In this document: in pieces, positions 4,573 to 22,247 of the stretch
Position numbering within the stretch: the stretch's first letter is position 1
Layout of the letters: every line of letters begins with the position of its first letter
The notes under the pieces: model-generated
Databases searched by the model: none
Seen by the model: the letters and a program-made list of their open reading frames with translations, nothing else
Told to the model about the DNA's origin: nothing
Made by a program: the position numbers and the translations under genes
DNA from: a virus
IMG/VR virus record: IMGVR_UViG_3300011113_000369
Location: 1-22,500 of that record
Strand: one strand, 5' to 3'
Length of the DNA stretch: 22,500 nt

Positions 4573-6219
4573 ATGGCAATTGATTTTCCAACAAATCCTT
4601 CTTCTGGACAAACCTATGCTTACAGTGGCAGTGTTTGGACATATAACGGATATGGTTGGGACCGTACAACATCTGGAGGATCTGGTACGGCAGGGGCAAC
4701 TGGTGCAACTGGACCACAAGGAAACACAGGAGCCACTGGAGCCACAGGTGCAACTGGACCACAAGGAAATACGGGATCTACGGGTGCTACTGGTGCCACT
4801 GGCCCTCAAGGAAATACTGGAGCCACTGGACCTGTTGGTGATTATGTTATATCATTCAATGGTCTTACTGGAACAGTAACTGGTGTAACCACAGGAACTG
4901 CAAATACATTTGGACCTCTTCAAAGTTTTACAAACGGTATAAGTGCATCTGGTGGAACATTTACAGATTTAAGAGCATCTGTTGCTTACATAGATTCAAT
5001 TGAGCCAAAAACTCTGTTAGGAGATTTGAATCTTAGCTCGCCAGCAAATATCAACATTGATAATTTTGGTGGACTTATAACCATTGGTGATGTCAATGGA
5101 AATGTAAATGGAACAACCCTAATTGTCCGTGATGGAACAAATACAATAACAGCAAACGGACAACTTGTTTCTAGTGGAGCCTTTACTGCAAGCAGCACAA
5201 TAACCTCTACAGGTACAATAAGAGCAAACGCGGGAATATCTGCCGCTGGTGGAACTTTCAGTAGTTTAACAAGATTTACTGCAGGAATTTCTTCTGCAGG
5301 GGCAACATTTAGTGGAAACGTAATTTTTGTAAATGGTCTTACAAGTAGCTCAAATATTAATTTACAAAATACTGAAATAATACAAAACACAACAAATGGT
5401 AGAGTAGATATAATGCCAAGGCCCACTGGGAGCACAGCATACGGAATCTACTTTGACACAACATCATGGGGCTTTGGTGTTATCATGGGAACTGTAAGAT
5501 CCTCGGATAATGCCATTAACACGGGTGGTAATTTTAGATTTGATGTGCCGATAACAATATTACAAGATACAAGATTCCAGTTAGGATCCGATGGACATTA
5601 TGGTTTATATAGAACCGATACTGGAAATAATACTGCACAACTTTATGCACTTTCAAACAATGCAAACAATAGCGGTGCATTTGCTTTAGTCGGATATTTT
5701 GATGTAGGTGCTGCAAATAGAAGTCCTGCTACTTCTCATACACACCCAAATCTTTACATTTATGCAAATGGAACAACAAGTGCAAATGATTTTATAAGAT
5801 TTGAACATAATAACACTCAAGGAAATATGGTTTCAGGTGGAACCACAGGAATTTTGATACAACCTGGGTCTGGTATTGTTGGAATATCCGGTGGACTTAG
5901 TGCTGGTGCCTATCAATTAAACTCAAATGGAATAATTACATTAACCGGAGCAACATACACGTTCCAAGCCTCAGATAATGGTGAAGTACTAGTTCACAAC
6001 AGAGGTTCCGGTGCAACATTTACAGTTCCAACAGGACTTCCAGTAGGATTCAGTTGCACTATAATTCATATAGGTACGGGTGGTCTTGGATTTACTGCAG
6101 CATCTGGTGTAACTCTTAACAGTTGGACGAATAAATATTCAAGCGTCGGACAACATGCAACTATTGGTTTGATATCTTATGCTACCAATGTATTCAATTT
6201 ATCAGGTGGATTGACATAA
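4573..6219 (+). CDS. Collagen-like tail fibre protein, 548 aa
   Basis: Residues 1-35 form a compact aromatic module ([22 protein letters not shown]), a type often found at the start of phage fibre proteins and probably the virion-attachment end. Residues 38-91 are a Gly-X-Y collagen-like stem (GAT, GPQ, GNT). Next come the GPVGDYVIS linker and [11 protein letters not shown] motif shared with the fibre gene at 1-726. Several [GS]ISAxGGTFxxL segments follow (near residues 122, 223 and 239), a pattern common in fibres of marine and freshwater T4-like phages. The C-terminal part ([20 protein letters not shown]) is a likely tip domain. There is no Shine-Dalgarno sequence; the start is set by the N-terminal module and the late-type promoter directly upstream. 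The stop overlaps the next start (TAATG). Confidence 0.85.
4684..4845 (+). repeat. Gly-X-Y collagen-like coding repeat
   Basis: About 18 consecutive Gly-X-Y triplets, dominated by GAT, GPQ and GNT. The DNA uses mixed synonymous codons, so it is more diverged than the repeat at 1-144. This low-complexity stretch also creates spurious open frames in the other five frames. Confidence 0.8.
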
Positions 6220-7061
6220 TGTTTTTACCATATCCTCGTGCAGCAAGTGTTGGAAGTTTTAGAAGACCTGTTGCTGGGGGAGCTGCGGCTCCAGTAAATG
6301 AAATAAATTTTACAACCACACTTAGTGGTGGAACTTTTGGATTTGTTACAAGTAATCGCACCATCACAATGAATACTAGCACTGGTTATTTGAAAGCAGA
6401 GTGGTGGGATGGGACTAGTACCATATATGGAAGCGGGGCCACTGGAACAGCCATGGATATACAAAAAAGTGTTGTTTCACCTTACAATAATACTTCTCCC
6501 AAATCAGTAAAAGTTTATTCATCAAATGTGTCTGGTACGAGAACGGGTGGTATTGAACGTATAGCCGTGACAAGTGTAGGACAAGACACAAATAAAATTA
6601 CTTCTATCGATTTGGCTGGGTGTACTACTTTGGGAACGTATAATTTCAATGAAGATACAATAGAGAACACAGGTATCACCTCATTAACTTTTCCGTCAGC
6701 ACCACTAACAACTCAAAACGGTCCTATTAGAGTAACTGGAAATACTTCTTTAACTACATTAGATATTAGTGGACGTACAGGTTCATTATATTATGTGATT
6801 AGCGGCAATACTGCTATGACTTCTTTAACTGCTACCGATTGTGGTAGAAATATAGAAAGTTATGGAAAAAATTATCCATTCTATAATGTTTTTGATATTA
6901 GAAATAATAATTTGGGTGCAACTGCACTAAATAATTTTTATACGGGTATAGCAACATCCCCCTTTGGTCTTGGATCAATTTTGGTTGGAGGAAATCCCGG
7001 AACTGGAACCGACAATCCTTCTATAGCAACTGCAAAAAATTGGACAGTCTACGGATCATAA
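6219..7061 (+). CDS. Leucine-rich-repeat-like virion protein, 280 aa
   Basis: The start overlaps the stop of the preceding fibre gene by one base (TAATG), which indicates translational coupling. After a short basic, Ala-rich N-terminus the middle of the protein shows short repeats of the form ITSIDLAGC, ITSLTFPS, LTTLDISGR, MTSLTATDC and NVFDIRNNNLG. This resembles the irregular leucine-rich repeats found in some phage surface proteins. It ends with NNFYTGI and NPGTGTDNPSIATAKNWTVYG, which looks like a final repeat cap. No signal peptide is present. It is likely part of the fibre or another virion-surface structure that binds a ligand; the exact role is not known. Confidence 0.7.
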   Translation: MFLPYPRAASVGSFRRPVAGGAAAPVNEINFTTTLSGGTFGFVTSNRTITMNTSTGYLKAEWWDGTSTIYGSGATGTAMDIQKSVVSPYNNTSPKSVKVYSSNVSGTRTGGIERIAVTSVGQDTNKITSIDLAGCTTLGTYNFNEDTIENTGITSLTFPSAPLTTQNGPIRVTGNTSLTTLDISGRTGSLYYVISGNTAMTSLTATDCGRNIESYGKNYPFYNVFDIRNNNLGATALNNFYTGIATSPFGLGSILVGGNPGTGTDNPSIATAKNWTVYGS

Positions 7062-7063
7062 AA

Positions 7064-7696
7064 ATGCCATTATATTTTATCACACCAAATTATAGTCTCG
7101 CATTAATACCAAAATCTGGTTGTTCTACCTTTGCTAGATCCGTTGTAAAATATTTTCAACCACAAGATGATCATATGGTTTTAAATGCTGCCTATCCCGA
7201 GGGGAAAAATGCAAACAATACACAAATTCAATGGTTGGCAAACAGAGAATCAGCTCCATCAAAACAAATTTTAGCATTTATAAGAGATCCTTATGAAAGA
7301 TTTTTATCAGCAATGGTACAAACTAATTTAACAAACATAGATGATCTTTTGTATTCATTAGAAAATAATTTGGTTGTTGAAAGGATTAATAGATCAAATC
7401 AAGGAAGAAGACCAATAACAAACAACGCTCACTTTAAACACCAATATACTTGGTTAAATTCAACTGCAAAATTATATAAGTTTCCAGATCATATTAATGA
7501 AGGTGCTTTAGAAGTCGGGTTTTCTTTACCATTGCCAGTTGTAAATCCTGCTGTAGCAGAAAAACCACAACCAACGCAAGCCCAAAAAGATAGAATTCTT
7601 GCATACTACGCAAAAGATAAAGAACTTTTTGATAAGATATCATCGCCCGGAATATTGTTTAGTGATATTTTAGATCCTTCTTGGTTGACTAATTAA
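7064..7696 (+). CDS. Probable sulfotransferase, 210 aa
   Basis: Two motifs of PAPS-dependent sulfotransferases (the carbohydrate sulfotransferase type with a P-loop-like fold) are present at the expected spacing. IPKSGCSTF at residues 15-23 matches the 5'-phosphosulfate loop, and FIRDPYERFLSAM at 72-84 matches the 3'-phosphate-binding R-DP-x-R-x-x-S motif. The family moves sulfate from PAPS to sugars or tyrosines. The ATG at 7064 is chosen because it lies 2 nt after the previous stop and gives a normal N-terminal strand; a TTG at 7040 in the same frame would overlap the LRR-like gene. There is no clear ribosome binding site, so coupling is likely. The substrate is unknown: fibre residues or a host surface glycan are possible. 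Confidence 0.7.
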   Translation: MPLYFITPNYSLALIPKSGCSTFARSVVKYFQPQDDHMVLNAAYPEGKNANNTQIQWLANRESAPSKQILAFIRDPYERFLSAMVQTNLTNIDDLLYSLENNLVVERINRSNQGRRPITNNAHFKHQYTWLNSTAKLYKFPDHINEGALEVGFSLPLPVVNPAVAEKPQPTQAQKDRILAYYAKDKELFDKISSPGILFSDILDPSWLTN

Positions 7697-8238: not shown

Positions 8239-8862
8239 TTATGCATTTATGACAATAGTCAGAGATAGTGTATTGCTGCAAGCAGCATTTGAATCCGTGA
8301 CATTAAAAAGTCTAAAAGTCGCACTTGACGCATTGGTTTCTGCAGTTGCGTCTCCAAAAATTTGTAGTGTATCACCAGATGCAAATGTAACTGCTCCCGT
8401 TGATGTATTTTGTGCCCATGTGGTCAAAACACCGCCATTTTTCTTATATTTGATTACAGTTACACCAATACTTCCAGTAAGAATGTTCCATTTCAAAGCA
8501 ACTGGTGTGGTATTACCAGAAATTGTGAAAGTTGGTGTCAGAGCATTGTCACCGATGGCGTTATCAATATTTTGAGATGTTGGAGAAAATGTTAATGTAT
8601 TAATGGTTGGTATTGAAGCGGAAGTTGCTACTGTTGGCTCTGCGCCATCAGAAACTCCATAATCCATCATGGCATACATGTCTTGGAATGCAATGTTGTT
8701 CATTTGCATGCCATTATTGGTATTCACCCAAGATTGTGTATTATCATTCCAACTAAATGGACCCATAGGTGTTGATACAATTTTTGGACCATAACCGCGT
8801 GTTGGAGCAACTTGCTCGTTCATTGCGGCAAAAAACGTTTTCATTGTATCTTTAGCACCCAT
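8239..8862 (-). CDS. Probable virion protein with Ig-like C-terminal half, 207 aa
   Basis: No named family is recognised. Residues 1-70 contain the segment GPFSWNDNTQSWVNTNNGM followed by a Met-rich stretch (MNNIAFQDMYAMMDYG). Residues 80-207 are Thr/Ser/Asn-rich and look like an immunoglobulin-like beta sandwich (PTFTISGNTTPVALKW, TFASGDTLQI, TFRLFNVTDSNAACS), a type often displayed on phage tails and heads. The start ATG at 8862 lies 16 nt downstream of a CATAAATA late motif and has only a weak purine-rich site (TAGAG). Tandem stops (TAATAA) end the gene 4 bp from the dUTPase stop. It is the last gene of the leftward late cluster. Confidence 0.65.
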   Translation of the reverse strand: MGAKDTMKTFFAAMNEQVAPTRGYGPKIVSTPMGPFSWNDNTQSWVNTNNGMQMNNIAFQDMYAMMDYGVSDGAEPTVATSASIPTINTLTFSPTSQNIDNAIGDNALTPTFTISGNTTPVALKWNILTGSIGVTVIKYKKNGGVLTTWAQNTSTGAVTFASGDTLQIFGDATAETNASSATFRLFNVTDSNAACSNTLSLTIVINA

Positions 8863-8878
8863 TATTCTATCTCTACCA

Positions 8879-8886
8879 TATTTATG
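8879..8886 (-). promoter_or_regulatory. Late promoter variant CATAAATA
   Basis: It lies in the 38-bp gap between the PEP-CTERM-like gene and the gene starting at 8862, reading leftward. The predicted transcript start is near 8873, about 11 nt before the ATG. It matches the NATAAATA motif described for T4-like cyanophages. Confidence 0.55.
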
Positions 8887-8900
8887 CTTATTTGTTTAAA

Positions 8901-9590
8901 TTATCGTTTTCTGCTTTTTGCTGTAATTATACCTAAAGCCGTAAAAGTAAGAACTTCAGGACCGGGTGGTTCTGGTACAACTAGACCGGGATTCAAAGAT
9001 CCCATACCATAATATTCACCAAATCCGTAGTTGATTCCTAGACCAAGGGTTGTACTATATACATCAAATGGTAACGTACTTGGTGTAAGGAATGCAGAGC
9101 GTGTATCTGTAATATTGAATAAATTAGCATTTATTGGTGTTTCTATTGATAAATTTTGATTGCTTAATGAAGCAATATTTTGAATTGTTTTTTGTGGAAT
9201 TGAAGGAACAGTTATGTCTGCTTGTTTTTCTTGTTGTTCCAATTTTTTATTTTCTACAGCAACAAGATCTTCTTTATCAAATTTGCCTTGTTCTTCTTTT
9301 GCAATCGGTGGTTTTGGAGACCATGGAGTTATTTCAATAGGATCACGGAATGATGTTTTTACTGGATCTTTTTTATCTTGAACTGGCTTACCTTCAGCAG
9401 AAGCCATAGCATCATTCATAGCATTTAAAGTAGATAATACTGCTTTTGTTCCCTGCTCTCCTAAAAGGGTCAAAGCACAAGTGCATACAATAGTTAAAAC
9501 ATAAAACTTCTTTTGAAGTTTTTTTAGACTTTCTTTTGCTTCAATACAAGTTTTGGCGCAAGTTTCACAACCGTGAGAGTGATTGCTCAT
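8901..9590 (-). CDS. Membrane protein with Cys-rich N-terminus and PEP-CTERM-like C-terminus, 229 aa
   Basis: Three parts are visible. Residues 1-29 hold a His/Cys cluster (H4, H6, C8, C11, C15) that could bind a metal, then a Lys-rich helix. Residues 30-44 are a membrane segment (FYVLTIVCTCALTLL). Residues 65-200 are a long, Pro/Gln/Lys-rich, probably periplasmic region. The end is VVPEPPGPEVL, then a short hydrophobic stretch and KSRKR at 225-229. A VPEP motif, hydrophobic segment and final basic cluster define the PEP-CTERM sorting signal, which exosortase handles in many environmental Gram-negative bacteria. The hydrophobic part (about 13 residues) is shorter than typical, so processing is uncertain. 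AAGGA precedes the ATG, and a CATAAATA motif lies upstream. The role is unknown; late membrane or surface function is inferred. Confidence 0.7.
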   Translation of the reverse strand: MSNHSHGCETCAKTCIEAKESLKKLQKKFYVLTIVCTCALTLLGEQGTKAVLSTLNAMNDAMASAEGKPVQDKKDPVKTSFRDPIEITPWSPKPPIAKEEQGKFDKEDLVAVENKKLEQQEKQADITVPSIPQKTIQNIASLSNQNLSIETPINANLFNITDTRSAFLTPSTLPFDVYSTTLGLGINYGFGEYYGMGSLNPGLVVPEPPGPEVLTFTALGIITAKSRKR

Positions 9591-9650: not shown

Positions 9651-9658
9651 TATTTATG
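9651..9658 (-). promoter_or_regulatory. Late promoter variant CATAAATA
   Basis: It directly follows the stop of the small lipoprotein gene (9660-9662) and reads toward the PEP-CTERM-like gene at 9590. The predicted start near 9645 leaves a leader of about 55 nt containing the AAGGA site. Confidence 0.55.
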
Positions 9659-9659
9659 C

Positions 9660-9956
9660 TTATGGCTTATCTTCTGGAACTATAGGAACCTGTTTTGCTT
9701 TAGTACCTGGTTCGGCTTCTATACAGTTGACTGGTTTAAGAACAAATGTTCTTACACCCCACATTAGAGCAATTATGGCAACTGGGCCGTACCAGAACAA
9801 CCAACCATAAGATTCGGTTTGTGCACCTGGTTCTGCAATTTTATCCTTTAGAGCCATCATTACAACGTTGTCAGAAGTATGATCTGGGATGATGACAGGA
9901 TCAGAGCTGCAGCCAGCAAGAAGAATCATTGAAATTAGAAATAGAAATAGTCTCAT
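9660..9956 (-). CDS. Small lipoprotein with one membrane segment, spanin candidate, 98 aa
   Basis: The N-terminus is a lipoprotein signal: MRLFLFLISMILLAGCSS, with lipobox LLAGC and the modified Cys at residue 16. The mature part has about 35 polar residues, a membrane segment at about 51-72 (YGWLFWYGPVAIIALMWGV) and a 26-residue Pro/Lys-rich tail. A lipoprotein anchored in the outer membrane with a second membrane segment is the plan of a unimolecular spanin, which joins inner and outer membranes in the last step of lysis; here the linker is shorter than in known u-spanins. The preceding gene looks like a holin, which supports a lysis role. AAGGAG lies 6 nt before the ATG. It could instead be an unrelated lipoprotein. 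Confidence 0.65.
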   Translation of the reverse strand: MRLFLFLISMILLAGCSSDPVIIPDHTSDNVVMMALKDKIAEPGAQTESYGWLFWYGPVAIIALMWGVRTFVLKPVNCIEAEPGTKAKQVPIVPEDKP

Positions 9957-9966
9957 GGTTCACTCC

Positions 9967-10404
9967 TTATGACTTGTTGTTGGCTGCTGCAGAGCCAAAG
10001 TAGAATCCTACGATACTGAGAAGAACTTCACGGTTTTCTGATGTCCAGAAGAAACCATTAATTTCTACGAAAGCCTTCTTGGCCGTTGCTGGGATCAAAC
10101 CAAACAAAGCCTCTGGATTCTTGACATCAACTTCTACGAAAGTAGGGACGCCAAAGAACGGAAGAATGAAAGGTGCTGCAAAGGCACCAAATAGAACGAC
10201 AAGTACAATGATTTGGCGAACGACACGGCCTGCGTCAAGGGGAACTCTTTGAGCTGCCTTATCTTGATTTTCAGTTGTTTGTTTGTTGGCTGTAATAAGC
10301 CTTTCGAATATTTCCTTTTGATCTTGGCTCTTTTGTGCCATATAACGAAAAAGAAATCCCGTAACTCCGCCACCTACCATGCTAATCAATTCTGGTGAAA
10401 ACAT
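9967..10404 (-). CDS. Holin-like membrane protein, 145 aa
   Basis: Hydrophobic segments lie at about residues 5-20, 63-86 (RQIIVLVVLFGAFAAPFILPF) and 127-139 (VLLSIVGFYFGSAAA), with a charged stretch in between. The final GFYFGSAA segment resembles the end of three-membrane-segment holins of the gene-transfer-agent type. Holins form holes in the inner membrane and time lysis. The gene is followed by a lipoprotein gene (spanin candidate) and preceded by another membrane-anchored gene, as in a lysis cassette. No endolysin is recognisable in the window. The start has GAGG about 10 nt upstream, and the gene lies 10 nt downstream of the previous stop. The family call rests on topology and the C-terminal motif only. 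Confidence 0.6.
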   Translation of the reverse strand: MFSPELISMVGGGVTGFLFRYMAQKSQDQKEIFERLITANKQTTENQDKAAQRVPLDAGRVVRQIIVLVVLFGAFAAPFILPFFGVPTFVEVDVKNPEALFGLIPATAKKAFVEINGFFWTSENREVLLSIVGFYFGSAAANNKS

Positions 10405-10414
10405 AATCTATACC

Positions 10415-11020
10415 TCAATTCTTTTGATATGAAAGTTGTACCTCAATCGAATCACGAATAGATGCAAAGTGTGTCATAAACTTCTCTTCCTGAGCCAAGT
10501 CTGGGGCATAATCCTTGTGCCACTGAACTAATACGAACCCTACGTTGACATGTTTATTTTTTACTGGAAGACACGCAACATGTGAAATATTTTCATCTTC
10601 AAAGAAATGTTTGGTGTAACTATTTGCAGGCATTGCTGCAACACAGTAGATCATCGGTTTGTTTTCTAAAATTCTTGTCAATAATGGAATAAAGAGAGAG
10701 CAGAGTGTGTTCTTGAACTTCAAAATTTGGGATGTATATCCTTTGTGTGAAGATTCATGGGTTATGGAGAATTTACGCATGGAGATACCATCCATAAAAT
10801 ATTCTCCGTTGTGAAATTGCAACACACTGGCTCTCATCGAATTGCTGGTTAGGCGAAGTTCTGTTAGGAGTTCATTTATTTCACTGTGGATTATTATAAA
10901 ATTATCTGTCTTTTTTCTAGACTTCCAAAATTTTTTAACTCCCAAAGTTAGACCTAATAAGCCTGCAACTCCTATGGCAATATTTTCTACAGTTTTTGGA
11001 AATTCTAGAAATGACGACAT
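10415..11020 (-). CDS. Membrane-anchored QFHNG-motif protein, possibly GAF-like, 201 aa
   Basis: The N-terminal membrane segment is at about residues 11-28 (VENIAIGVAGLLGLTLGV), followed by a basic patch (KKFWKSRKK) that places the rest in the cytoplasm by the positive-inside rule. The soluble part begins with a helix (HSEINELLTELRL) and the motif RASVLQFHNGEYFMDGIS. It then has alternating strands and helices (IYCVAAMPANSYTK, ISHVACLPVKN, VGFVLVQWHKD) that look like a GAF/PAS-type sensor fold. The motif resembles phage proteins of unknown function that I recall; no biochemical role is known to me. It is the first gene after a TATAAATA late promoter, with GGAG 6 nt before the ATG, and heads the holin-like and lipoprotein genes. 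A regulatory role in lysis is a guess from position. Confidence 0.6.
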   Translation of the reverse strand: MSSFLEFPKTVENIAIGVAGLLGLTLGVKKFWKSRKKTDNFIIIHSEINELLTELRLTSNSMRASVLQFHNGEYFMDGISMRKFSITHESSHKGYTSQILKFKNTLCSLFIPLLTRILENKPMIYCVAAMPANSYTKHFFEDENISHVACLPVKNKHVNVGFVLVQWHKDYAPDLAQEEKFMTHFASIRDSIEVQLSYQKN

Positions 11021-14663: not shown

Positions 14664-15669
14664 AAACTTAATTAGCAAGATTGATAACCCAGACGCAACC
14701 CTAGTATCTGAAGGTATTGATGGTGCCGATGTTTCAGGCTTCATCGATACAGGTTCATATGCTCTGAATGCTCTGCTGTCGGGATCAATCTTTGGTGGAT
14801 TACCTAACAACAAGATCTCTTGCTTGGCAGGAGATCCGGCAACAGGAAAGACCTTCTATGCCATTGGCATCGCAGGCCAGTTCCTAAAGGATCACAAAGA
14901 TGGTGTTGTGATTTATTTTGATACCGAACAGGCAGTTACCTCCGATATGTTCACTGCCCGTGGAGTTGATCCTGAGCGCATAGCGGTCATTCCTGTTGCC
15001 ACAATCGAAGAGTTCAAGACTCAATCCCTCAAGATTGTCAATGACATTCTTGAGCAGCCAGAGGACGAGCGAAAGCCAGTCTTCATGATTCTTGACTCAC
15101 TTGGAATGTTGTCTACCCGCAAGGAGATGACTGACTCTGCTGAAGGCAAAGATGTCCGTGACATGACCAAGGCCCAGCAGACCAAGGCAACCTTCCGTGT
15201 TCTTACCCTTAAGCTTGGAAAGGCAAAGATTCCCATGCTTCTCACCAATCACACATATCAAGTAATTGGTGCGTATGTACCGACCAAGGAGTTGGGTGGT
15301 GGTATTGGTCTGAAGTATGCAGCCAGCAATATTCTTACTCTCTCAAAGAGCAAGGATAAGACTGATGAAGGTGTAGTTGGTAACTTTATCAAGTGCACTA
15401 ATTATAAGAATCGTTTTGTCAAGGAGAACATGAATGTTGAGACTCGTTTGAATTATTCATCCGGTCTCAGCAGATATTATGGTTTGACTGACCTAGCCTT
15501 GAAGTATAATATATTCAAGAAGGTATCGACTCGCGTTGAGTTGCCAGACGGTACTAAGGTATTTGAGAAGAATATTGATGATGAACCTGAGAAGTATTTT
15601 ACAAAAGAAATATTGGAAAAACTTGACAAAGAAATTCAAAAGGATTTTAAGTATGGGCAAAGCAGTTGA
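14647..15669 (+). CDS. uvsX: RecA/UvsX-type recombinase, 340 aa
   Basis: An ATP-dependent strand-exchange protein for recombination-dependent replication and repair. Walker A is GDPATGKT at residues 62-69, a DTEQA segment near 92-96 holds the likely catalytic Glu, and Walker B ends in FMILDS (D150). The LTNHTYQ segment corresponds to the RecA region that senses ATP. The adjacent GGGIGLKYAASNIL stretch is typical of UvsX-like proteins. Length is close to RecA (about 350 aa) and T4 UvsX (about 390 aa). GAGG lies 6 nt before the ATG. It sits in the T4-like position between polymerase and helicase. The last 60 codons shift to A/T-ending codons, unlike the core. Confidence 0.9.
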   Translation: MSKYLKNLISKIDNPDATLVSEGIDGADVSGFIDTGSYALNALLSGSIFGGLPNNKISCLAGDPATGKTFYAIGIAGQFLKDHKDGVVIYFDTEQAVTSDMFTARGVDPERIAVIPVATIEEFKTQSLKIVNDILEQPEDERKPVFMILDSLGMLSTRKEMTDSAEGKDVRDMTKAQQTKATFRVLTLKLGKAKIPMLLTNHTYQVIGAYVPTKELGGGIGLKYAASNILTLSKSKDKTDEGVVGNFIKCTNYKNRFVKENMNVETRLNYSSGLSRYYGLTDLALKYNIFKKVSTRVELPDGTKVFEKNIDDEPEKYFTKEILEKLDKEIQKDFKYGQSS

Positions 15670-15979
15670 TTTTGATCTACTTCCCGATGAGACTACAGAC
15701 CTGACAAACACTTGTCCTATTCTCATCAAAAGTGGAAAGTTTAAAGATATTGTATATCGTTATGGAAAGATTTCTTTCCAAGAACTAGAAGATGGTGCAT
15801 TGAATGTGAACATGGAGGTAGAAATGATTAAGGCACCTGAAGGATTTAATCAACAAGATCCTGAGTTTACTCAGACTGTTGGCGATATCTTTACTAAAAT
15901 TGTAGAAGATCAAGTTACAACAGTTGATGAAAAAGATCTTGAGGCAGATGTTCACGAAGACCAAGTGGACAAACCCTAA
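15653..15979 (+). CDS. Acidic hypothetical protein between uvsX and helicase, 108 aa
   Basis: The start at 15653 has AAGGA (15640-15644) 8 nt upstream and overlaps the uvsX end by 17 nt. An upstream in-frame ATG at 15536 would add 39 residues wholly inside uvsX and is rejected. The protein is acidic (GKAVDFDLLPDETTDLTN, EDQVTTVDEKDLEADVHEDQ), has no signal or membrane segment, and carries a central FKDIVYRYGKISFQELEDG segment. It occupies the same slot as T4 gene 40, but no sequence likeness is claimed. A conserved accessory to recombination or helicase loading is a fair guess. Confidence 0.7.
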   Translation: MGKAVDFDLLPDETTDLTNTCPILIKSGKFKDIVYRYGKISFQELEDGALNVNMEVEMIKAPEGFNQQDPEFTQTVGDIFTKIVEDQVTTVDEKDLEADVHEDQVDKP

Positions 15980-15993
15980 TTAGGTGATATACT
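15966..15993 (+). promoter_or_regulatory. Sigma70-like promoter for helicase, leaderless geometry
   Basis: TGGACA (15966-15971), 16 bp, TATACT (15988-15993) with TGA directly before it (extended -10). Six bases then precede the ATG at 16000. There is no Shine-Dalgarno sequence between the promoter and the gene. Confidence 0.65.
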
Positions 15994-15999
15994 AACAAC

Positions 16000-17415
16000 A
16001 TGGAAACAGTTATTCTAAAGAACCTAGTTCTCAATGAGGACTATGCTCGCAAAGTCGTCCCATTTCTTCAGGAAGAGTACTTTCATGACAAGGCCGAGAA
16101 AACGGTCTTTAATATTGTTAGTAAGTTCATTCTGAAATATAACAATATTCCGACCAAGGATGCAGTACACATCTCTCTTGAGAATGATACTGCTCTTTCC
16201 GAAGTTGAGTTCAAGAAGTGTGTTTCCATTTCTGATGAAATGTACAAACAGGGTGAGATGTCAGACACCATCTGGCTTGTGGAGAACACTGAGAAGTTCT
16301 GCAAAGAGAAGGCCATATACAATGGTATCATGGAATCAATCGGTATCATTGAAGGCAAGGACAAGGAGAAGACACAGAATGCCATTCCTGAAATCATGTC
16401 AAAAGCTCTTTCTGTTTCGTTTGATACTCGTGTCGGCCATGATTTTCTAGAAGATGTAGATGAGAGATATGAATATTATCATAGAGTCGAAGAAAAAGTT
16501 CCTTTCGATCTTGAAATGTTTAATGTCATTACTCGTGGGGGTGTTCGTAAAAAGACCCTTAATGTAGTCATGGCAGCTTCAGGTGTTGGTAAGAGCGCAT
16601 TCTTATGCCATCATGCAGCAGCGTGCTTGGCACAAAATTTGAATGTTCTTTACATCACTCTTGAAATGGCTGAAGAGGAAATTGCAAAGCGCATTGATGC
16701 AAACTTGCTCAACAGCGATATGCATGATCTTGAACGTATGCCTTTGACCCAATATGAGAGCAAGGTTGACAACTTGAGAAAGACTTGCCGAGGTAAGTTG
16801 ATTATCAAGGAATATCCTACTGCTGCTGCAAACGTAACTCACTTCCGAAATCTTATGGAAGAATTAAAGATTAAGAAGAAGTTTGCACCCGATGTAATCT
16901 TTGTAGACTACTTGAACATCTGCTCCTGTGCTCGTTTCAAGTTGGGCAATGGTATGAACAGTTATACCTACGTCAAGGGCATTGCAGAGGAATTGCGTGG
17001 CCTTGCCAAGCAGTTTAATGTACCCCTCTGGACAGCCACTCAGGTTAACCGTGAAGGTGCTAAGAGCAGCGACATGGAGATGACAGATACTTCTGAAAGT
17101 TTTGGTCTACCACAGACTGCAGACTTGTTCTTTGCTCTGATTGAAACAGAGGAACTTGCAGAGGCTGGCCAGTTGATGGTCAAGCAACTTAAAAATCGTG
17201 GTAATGATACCACAAAGAATAGAAAATTCCTTGTTGGTGTAAATAAATCTAAGATGAAATTTTACGATGTTGATAATGCAAATAATAATTTGGTAAATTC
17301 AAATAACACAGGTGAAGAAGGCTTTGGTTCTGGCTTTGATGGATCAACTTTTGATACACAATTTGGCAAGAAGAAGAACAAAGTTGTCAGTTGGACATTT
17401 GAAGAGACCAAGTGA
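16000..17415 (+). CDS. 41: Replicative DNA helicase, DnaB/gp41-like, 471 aa
   Basis: A hexameric 5'-3' helicase that unwinds DNA ahead of the fork and works with the primase encoded next. Residues 1-140 are a helical N-terminal domain. The RecA-like motor has Walker A ASGVGKSA at about 193-200, a VLYITLEMAEEEI segment with the catalytic Glu, Walker B DVIFVDYLN (D303), and the DnaB motif WTATQVNR followed by a TSESFGLPQTADLFFAL region. Length matches T4 gp41 (475 aa). A host-type promoter lies directly before the ATG. The stop TGA overlaps the primase ATG. The Asn-rich end (near residues 425-440) uses A/T-ending codons. Confidence 0.93.
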   Translation: METVILKNLVLNEDYARKVVPFLQEEYFHDKAEKTVFNIVSKFILKYNNIPTKDAVHISLENDTALSEVEFKKCVSISDEMYKQGEMSDTIWLVENTEKFCKEKAIYNGIMESIGIIEGKDKEKTQNAIPEIMSKALSVSFDTRVGHDFLEDVDERYEYYHRVEEKVPFDLEMFNVITRGGVRKKTLNVVMAASGVGKSAFLCHHAAACLAQNLNVLYITLEMAEEEIAKRIDANLLNSDMHDLERMPLTQYESKVDNLRKTCRGKLIIKEYPTAAANVTHFRNLMEELKIKKKFAPDVIFVDYLNICSCARFKLGNGMNSYTYVKGIAEELRGLAKQFNVPLWTATQVNREGAKSSDMEMTDTSESFGLPQTADLFFALIETEELAEAGQLMVKQLKNRGNDTTKNRKFLVGVNKSKMKFYDVDNANNNLVNSNNTGEEGFGSGFDGSTFDTQFGKKKNKVVSWTFEETK

Positions 17416-21455: not shown

Positions 21456-22247
21456 ATGAGTTTGAGGGCTCTAATCCTCGCTCTGATGTTGGCGACAAGC
21501 ACGGCTTGCAATTCGCTATCGTCTCCTCAAAATAAAGTTGAAGAACCGGAAAAAACACAAGGAGTAGCGGAAGTCCCCGCCTTTCTTTTGGATTCATCGA
21601 AGTACGATTCCATAGACAAGTCTGAGGACGACCGCTACTCCTGTGTAGGTGCTTTGGTAACTCCCAGTTCAAAAATAATTGGTTCTGCTGTACTTATTCA
21701 CCCAAGAGCAATACTTACAGCACAACATTGTTTTGCATTATCACAAGAAAAACCAGCATACTATTTAAGTCAATCCGGTCAACTGATAAGAATAGTTAAA
21801 GTATTTTTGAAGCAACCATACAACGAATTTATTGCTTGGAATGATATTGCTCTTTGCATACTTGAAGAGGATTGTTACGACCCACCATCGGAGATTATGC
21901 AAGATGGGTTTGATCTTACTCCAGGCGAAAACTTAACAACTGTTGGCTGGAGTCTTGGATATAAAAAAGTAAGTGAACTAGGAGTTATGAAATATTATGG
22001 TTCTTTGATAGAGGACCGTGGATACATCATGAGAATGCTTGCACAGAAGGGATCTGTTTATTATGGGGATTCTGGTGGTGGAGTATTTGAAGACACCGGA
22101 AAACTTTGTGGCATAATAAATTTCTTTAGACTAGACGGCGACTCAAATGAAATTTTAGACAACGGGGCTGCTAGAGTCGATGTCCAATATAATTGGATAA
22201 ATCAAATATTGAGCAAAGAAGTTTGTGGCTGGCCATGGTTTGAATAA
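21456..22247 (+). CDS. Secreted trypsin-like serine protease, 263 aa
   Basis: Residues 1-18 look like a signal peptide (MSLRALILALMLATSTAC); the Cys at 18 could make it a lipoprotein, though the box STAC lacks the usual Leu at -3. The S1 catalytic triad is complete: LTAQHC (H91), NDIAL (D130) and GDSGG (S206). Seven Cys residues, including C92 next to the His, suit disulfides outside the cytoplasm. Residues 19-55 are a polar linker. The family cleaves peptide bonds; the target is unknown and could be host envelope proteins or a virion protein. It has its own late promoter, so it acts late. I know of few phage proteins of this kind. It might have come from a host, but codon use is like its neighbours. 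Confidence 0.85.
   Translation: MSLRALILALMLATSTACNSLSSPQNKVEEPEKTQGVAEVPAFLLDSSKYDSIDKSEDDRYSCVGALVTPSSKIIGSAVLIHPRAILTAQHCFALSQEKPAYYLSQSGQLIRIVKVFLKQPYNEFIAWNDIALCILEEDCYDPPSEIMQDGFDLTPGENLTTVGWSLGYKKVSELGVMKYYGSLIEDRGYIMRMLAQKGSVYYGDSGGGVFEDTGKLCGIINFFRLDGDSNEILDNGAARVDVQYNWINQILSKEVCGWPWFE

Follow-up and report, generated by a model that had tools for sequence, protein, structure and literature searches.

Genomic context

The window, that is the whole 22.5-kb stretch of DNA analysed here (IMG/VR virus record IMGVR_UViG_3300011113_000369, positions 1 to 22,500), belongs to a T4-like phage marked by DNA polymerase, UvsX, helicase and primase-like genes. Its genes were named partly by reading the sequences and partly with Pfam, which confirms the ThyX, class II RNR, trypsin-like and sulfotransferase-like genes. 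The PolB of the window shares at most 42.6% identity with isolate phages, the nearest being cyanomyophages, and the phage group carrying the gene studied here is known only from metagenomes.

This gene, hereafter A (8901..9590, minus strand), starts with an ATG directly preceded by the Shine-Dalgarno-like GAAAGGA and encodes a bitopic protein of 229 aa with a PEP-CTERM-like tail. Directly upstream on the same strand, a lipoprotein-like gene (9660..9956, 98 aa) displays the lipobox LLAGC and one membrane segment; its position is conserved and it has a weak Rz-spanin-like PHROG match (E 0.036). Next to it stands a gene for a membrane protein of 145 aa (9967..10404, minus; phrog_38283), possibly holin-like and a conserved marker of the phage group. 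Relatives of this protein are encoded in 364 viral stretches; of 50,697 phage records, that of Verrucomicrobia phage P8625 alone gave a match. Downstream of A in the window lies a gene whose product begins MGAKDTMKTFF (8239..8862, minus), which in the closest relatives comes after a second gene, B, described below. The stretch that separates A from its downstream neighbour showed no RNA structure, and a search for an anti-defence role gave no PADLOC match.

Elsewhere in the window, a sulfotransferase-like gene (7040-7696, plus; PF03567, E 2e-6), flanked by tail-fibre-type and dUTPase-like genes, could modify surface glycans. Fibre-type proteins with the collagen-like repeats GATGATG and GIQGxTG are encoded at 1-726 and 4573-6219 (plus), and a trypsin-like protease with a lipoprotein-type N-terminus at 21456-22247 (plus; PF00089, E 1e-11), its gene preceded by a TATAAATA element.

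The first-pass annotation had suggested that A may enter the exopolysaccharide sorting route of the host late in infection, or may compete for it. The late promoter of T4 is TATAAATA, which the motif ATAAATA resembles. The late-promoter-like CATAAATA (9651..9658, minus) lies 61 bp upstream of A and occurs again 20 bp 5' of 10415-11020, 17 bp 5' of 8239-8862 and also before structural genes; it is present in about 1.6% of random 120-bp stretches. ATAAATA has nine sites in the window (722-22250), a count near the shuffled expectation, and seven of the nine stand at most 82 bp upstream of the start of a gene on the same strand, among them the minus-strand operon, A itself and the gene that follows it. 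The polymerase, UvsX and helicase genes of the window have no such site before them. Conservation of the motif before every A gene was considered and rejected: the exact form precedes 6 of 34, and several others have CTAAATA by eye. ATAAATA is likely a late-promoter element of this phage group, and with so few exact copies before A genes the support that it lends to late timing is modest.

Protein A and its homologues

Both ends of protein A are as the first-pass annotation had described them. The N-terminus carries a predicted cytoplasmic His/Cys cluster (H4, H6, C8, C11 and C15; 9546..9590, minus), followed by a membrane segment at about residues 29-45 (9456..9506, minus) with a Lys-rich N side and a predicted N-in orientation. 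This is the single strong segment at the N-terminus (Kyte-Doolittle mean 2.29 over 15 residues). The AF2 model shows one long helix at residues 9-65; its confidence is low (pLDDT 56.5), so that it was used for the N-terminal helix only. Judged from sequence, A has no cleavable signal peptide: the charged 28 residues before the membrane helix, with their Cys and His, lack a signal-peptide layout and are conserved in homologues. At the other end, the last 25 residues (205-229; 8904..8978, minus) hold VPEP at 205-208, a hydrophobic stretch at about 211-224 and KSRKR at 225-229. Between the two ends, residues 169-195 (9006..9086, minus) form a conserved linear motif, TPSTLPFDVYSTTLxLGxNYGFGEYYG, for which no known match was found.

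The whole protein matched nothing in Pfam, PHROG or the NCBIfam PEP-CTERM models, and no spanin, holin or endolysin family of Pfam, PHROG or NCBIfam matched it either. A search of viral contigs and isolate phages with the window sequence alone returned no homologue, and relatives were therefore reached through the neighbouring genes: contigs were fetched by PolB and the 145-aa membrane protein, A was located by the gene order (lipoprotein-like gene, then A), and profiles were then applied. The A profile gathers 34 distinct A-type proteins in related viral contigs, that of the window included. Eight of these are short forms of 91-118 aa with the N-terminal module only, which shows that some A proteins can do without a tail. 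Two extra full-length proteins (on contigs L181 and L197) were recognised by their tails.

The alignment comprises 28 full-length proteins sharing 18-60% identity with the window protein. In all 28, some of them only 18-25% identical, the tail retains its proline, its hydrophobic stretch and its basic end, and P206 is one of just three invariant residues, together with C11 and G44; C8, T41, R227 and R229 are nearly invariant. The central motif is nearly invariant in the closer homologues and disappears from the most divergent, whose tail persists. The expectation that homologues would keep VPEP and the basic tail was thus borne out for the proline and the basic end of full-length proteins, while strict VPEP is found in a minority of them.

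The tail of A on its own

Taken alone, the tail of the window protein has the three parts of a PEP-CTERM signal: Pro-x-Pro, about 14 hydrophobic residues and, at the very end of the chain, a basic cluster. None of the NCBIfam or Pfam PEP-CTERM profiles matches the isolated tail, and neither the full protein nor the tail reaches the curated cut-offs of TIGR02595 and PF07589. On a tail HMM built from 30 planctomycete PEP-CTERM tails (TIGR02595 hits), it scores 2.1 bits, a value reached by 0.8% of 1254 other phage C-termini and by 1.3% of shuffles. The window tail by itself exceeds chance only marginally. PEP-CTERM-like scores on this HMM are almost absent among the other phage ORFs (n=1254), and four of the five top-scoring apparent negatives are PEP-CTERM-like proteins, two being overlooked A homologues.

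The 12-residue hydropathy of the window tail (2.06) falls between the extremes recorded for real PEP-CTERM tails (1.62 and 2.76). As a set, the tails of A stay below the reference tails in hydropathy (median 1.63 vs 2.18, p=8e-6). In phages without B the tails are more hydrophobic (2.06 in the window, 2.33, 2.31, 2.21 and 1.74 in the others) than in those with B (median 1.52, n=22; p=0.007), a post hoc comparison of non-independent sequences, some from fragment records. One homologue tail, VPDAGTMSVLTLGTLINTRKRN, weakly resembles VPDSG-CTERM (TIGR03778, PF18205) with 14-15 bits; this is below the curated cut-offs of 22 and 25 bits, and the other A tails are unmatched.

A partner gene with a near-canonical tail

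In most relatives, A is directly followed by a second gene, B. It is absent from the window, where neither tblastn nor a profile found it and where a gap of 38 bp (8863..8900, minus) stands at the place that B occupies in the closest relatives. Full-length A-B pairs are spaced by -4 to +18 nt, with overlaps of 4 or 1 nt, and by this arrangement the two genes are translationally coupled in most relatives. B was invisible to the first-pass annotation, made on the window, and provides the strongest evidence for its sorting-signal reading.

B combines a signal peptide, as judged from sequence, with a tripartite tail, on either side of a conserved domain (66% mean column identity in 24 sequences). 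AF2 predicts for B a jelly roll flanked by one helix at either end (pLDDT 82.8), and the best PDB matches of this model by Foldseek are CBM4, CBM16, CBM22, CBM61 and a porphyran-binding CBM, with E down to 1.5e-6. The likeness to these carbohydrate-binding modules lies in the predicted fold only, at 10-19% identity and with no sequence-family match for B.

The tails of B follow the consensus [VI]PxPGAxALL...RRRR (for example VIPSPGAIALLGVGGLMVSRRRRIV), with a median hydropathy of 2.36. On the tail HMM their highest score is 23 bits, while a few remain at background. Against TIGR02595 (cut-off 16), one B scores 16.1 bits, another 15.7 and the rest 8-13 or nothing; against PF07589 the best score is 16.2 for a cut-off of 20.7. 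The match to PEP-CTERM profiles anticipated by the first-pass annotation thus failed for every A tested and was obtained for a single B. Planctomycete PxPGA tails likewise straddle the cut-offs of both models. Between proline motif and basic run, most B tails and ten planctomycete tails of the PxPGA form have a spacing of 17-18 residues, against mostly 20-21 in 29 reference tails, mainly VPEP. The tails of B therefore correspond to one planctomycete type (PxPGA, spacing mostly 17-18) and not to the VPEP type with its spacing of 20-21; all reference tails were sampled from Planctomycetota. Planctomycete PxPGA tails such as LVPAPGALALLGVAGLVGSRRRR nearly share the consensus and spacing of the phage tails; they differ in being cellular and in belonging to a variety of proteins whose likeness to B lies mostly in the tail.

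Two long related phage records (G001 and G010), read from one end to the other, showed no convincing tails besides those of A and B. A third record, G006, holds two more PEP-CTERM-like tails near its A-B pair (L314:15072-15572 and 15533-16213, minus; also in L189), IPSPSAIPILALGLAAFSRKRKGN and VVPSPGTFALALCSCALGSNRRRK, so that this phage carries four. Since the layout of the A tail is kept in 28 of 28 aligned proteins and recurs in the adjacent B, comparison of the sequences indicates that it is clearly not due to chance across the family.

Cellular relatives, exosortase and the host

B is homologous to cellular PEP-CTERM proteins. A genome scan with B recovered homologues of 37-39% identity in Schlesneria MAGs (Planctomycetota). 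Two of the three have PEP-CTERM ends, VPEPSSFALMGLGALGLAMAAYRRRKMLV and VPEPSSFALLGLGVLSLVVGVYRRRTQMA, and adjoin other PEP-CTERM genes; the third is out of frame or different at its end. In the tails of these homologues (VPEPSSFALMGLGALGLAMAAYRRRK), VPEPSS...YRRR occupies the position that the tail has in phage B. One Schlesneria locus (L162:2919-5684, plus) aligns three PEP-CTERM genes in tandem, the third being the B homologue, a possible donor context.

An exosortase is encoded in each of the three Schlesneria genomes with a B homologue, one per genome. In one class of Planctomycetota, suspected to be Phycisphaerae, 59 of 61 genomes have PEP-CTERM tails, several of them with PxPGA tails near-identical to those of phage B, and exosortase was found in all ten genomes checked. 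Altogether, 13 planctomycete genomes with a B-like protein or a tail of similar type were checked, and all 13 encode exosortase (PF09721). In 19 related phage records the enzyme was not found, and these phages probably use that of their host.

On these sequence likenesses, a host among the Planctomycetota or the wider PVC group is favoured. The one isolate-phage relative of the 145-aa protein, in Verrucomicrobia phage P8625, is weak (29% identity); Verrucomicrobia belong to the same PVC superphylum as Planctomycetota. No relative of the 145-aa gene was found in 392 planctomycete genomes, and the link to a planctomycete host therefore stays indirect. Caution also comes from a permuted tmRNA (RF04321, 64.4 bits) adjoining tRNA-Pro in G010 (L316:16831-17111, minus), which of the long related records is nearest to the window phage, as permuted tmRNA is associated with phyla other than Planctomycetota. 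The 157-kb related phage G001 has a one-piece tmRNA amid tRNA genes (L308:14357-14752, plus; RF00023, 134.9 bits). A cyanobacterial host, hinted at by the 42% identity of PolB to cyanophages, is not favoured, as no psbA-type gene was found in 20 related records. Unannotated wastewater contigs labelled 'Listeria phage' hold a B homologue with 34% identity (OR846807.1; L329:1691-2191); they were dropped as a host clue, being probably mislabelled environmental DNA.

A sorting signal probably borrowed from the host

The PEP-CTERM tag sends proteins to the surface or slime layer in some bacteria, and exosortase sorting has been known since 2006; Nostoc punctiforme crtB and the floc-forming Zoogloea resiniphila are among the bacteria with a described system. 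The original description comprises a PEP motif, a hydrophobic stretch of 14 residues, a five-residue basic end and a very low Cys content, with a signal peptide in 97% of the proteins (PMC1569441). In a cyanobacterial model, PEP-CTERM proteins exported by Sec remain attached to the inner membrane at first; once exosortase has cut off the tail, they move outward and associate with polysaccharide (PMC12188702). The phage proteins share with this system (EpsH; TIGR02595, PF07589, PF09721) the proline motif, the approximately 14 hydrophobic residues and the terminal basic cluster, to which B adds a signal peptide, a host-like surface domain and PEP-CTERM homologues in exosortase-bearing genomes. 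They differ in being encoded by phages without an exosortase of their own, in tails that are mostly PxP or PxS with strict PEP less common, and in the N-terminal anchor and His/Cys tip that A has in place of a signal peptide. Among the titles and abstracts listed by full-text searches of 5.39 million open papers, none reports a virus using exosortase or PEP-CTERM proteins encoded by a phage; a Microcystis virus paper was rejected as a precedent, as it concerns host genes.

What sequences and models show directly is a conserved A tail, a coupled B with a CBM-like fold and a near-canonical signal, exosortase together with matching tails in planctomycetes, and no exosortase in the phage records. 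On this evidence B is very probably, and A probably, directed to the host exosortase pathway. The reading that we prefer, and hold to be somewhat better than even, makes A a late-type envelope protein, encoded by T4-like phages, with a C-terminal end that mimics the signals used by the host for exosortase (PEP-CTERM) sorting. The first-pass idea of a PEP-CTERM-type signal on a protein held at both ends is in its core strengthened by the homologues and the co-encoded B, and as a whole partly supported. The absence of a profile match and of a cleavable signal peptide, the several Cys and the less hydrophobic tail all count against A as a substrate.

In another reading, to which we give roughly one chance in five, A would be an envelope or lysis protein anchored at two points, in the manner of a spanin or an antiholin, its tail serving only as a second anchor with the proline at the start of the helix and exosortase uninvolved. 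Its place directly after lipoprotein-like and possibly holin-like genes, its N-in topology with a periplasmic middle, the short tail-less forms and the B-paired tails, weaker than real PEP-CTERM tails, all fit such a protein. A nevertheless has no significant match to holin, endolysin or spanin families, and a PEP-CTERM-like tail is not, to our knowledge, a feature of spanin or holin-antiholin families. A plain anchor moreover leaves unexplained a proline and a basic end retained at 18-25% identity, as well as the near-canonical tail of the neighbouring B with its signal peptide and CBM-like domain.

It is improbable that A acts as an exosortase decoy or inhibitor, holding a substrate-like tail that cannot be released near the enzyme by means of its N-terminal helix and so blocking host sorting. 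An uncleavable anchor joined to a substrate-like tail would suit that role, as would the more canonical A tails of phages that have lost B, but the coupled B resembles cargo of the same route, which makes blocking unlikely in most phages. That VPEP and KSRKR merely reflect the composition of a short hydrophobic C-terminus, as a 2.1-bit score equalled by about 1% of other tails or shuffles and the missing profile match could suggest, is very improbable and, from the sequences, largely refuted by conservation across the 28-protein alignment and by independent tails on B and on two further proteins in one phage.

For a sorting signal imitated by the phage, the route that we infer, from host and timing to recognition and processing by exosortase, surface placement and purpose, would run as follows. 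The Lys-flanked N-terminal helix would insert A in the inner membrane so that the His/Cys tip lies in the cytoplasm and the central part of the protein in the periplasm. The tail would be embedded in that membrane too and would expose its proline motif on the outer side, so that a host exosortase could recognise and process the tail there. Having no exosortase in their records, the phages would depend on that of the host. B, secreted, carbohydrate-binding-like in its predicted fold, near-canonical in its tail and coupled to A in most relatives, would be the likely main cargo. It would fit the published tether-then-release model directly, whereas A would stay tethered by its N-terminus even after its tail was cut. 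The most likely outcome would be the placement of phage proteins in or on the envelope or exopolysaccharide of the infected cell, for example for receptor masking or the loosening of slime before lysis. Receptor masking, slime modification, an exosortase decoy and lysis are all conceivable surface roles of A and B. The fuller scenario, in which T4-like phages hijack the host exosortase so that a late-expressed pair, the CBM-like secreted B and the membrane-tethered A, is sorted to the surface or exopolysaccharide and alters receptor access or slime, is a tentative one that we place a little short of an even chance.

If it is true, phages would exploit the exosortase route of surface display, and the type of tail would help to infer, from sequence, which hosts are infected by a phage group known only from metagenomes; such tails could mark the hosts of uncultured planctomycete phages. 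Two questions of PEP-CTERM biology would also become testable with these proteins: the destination that PEP-CTERM proteins reach, and whether exosortase accepts a substrate anchored by its N-terminus.
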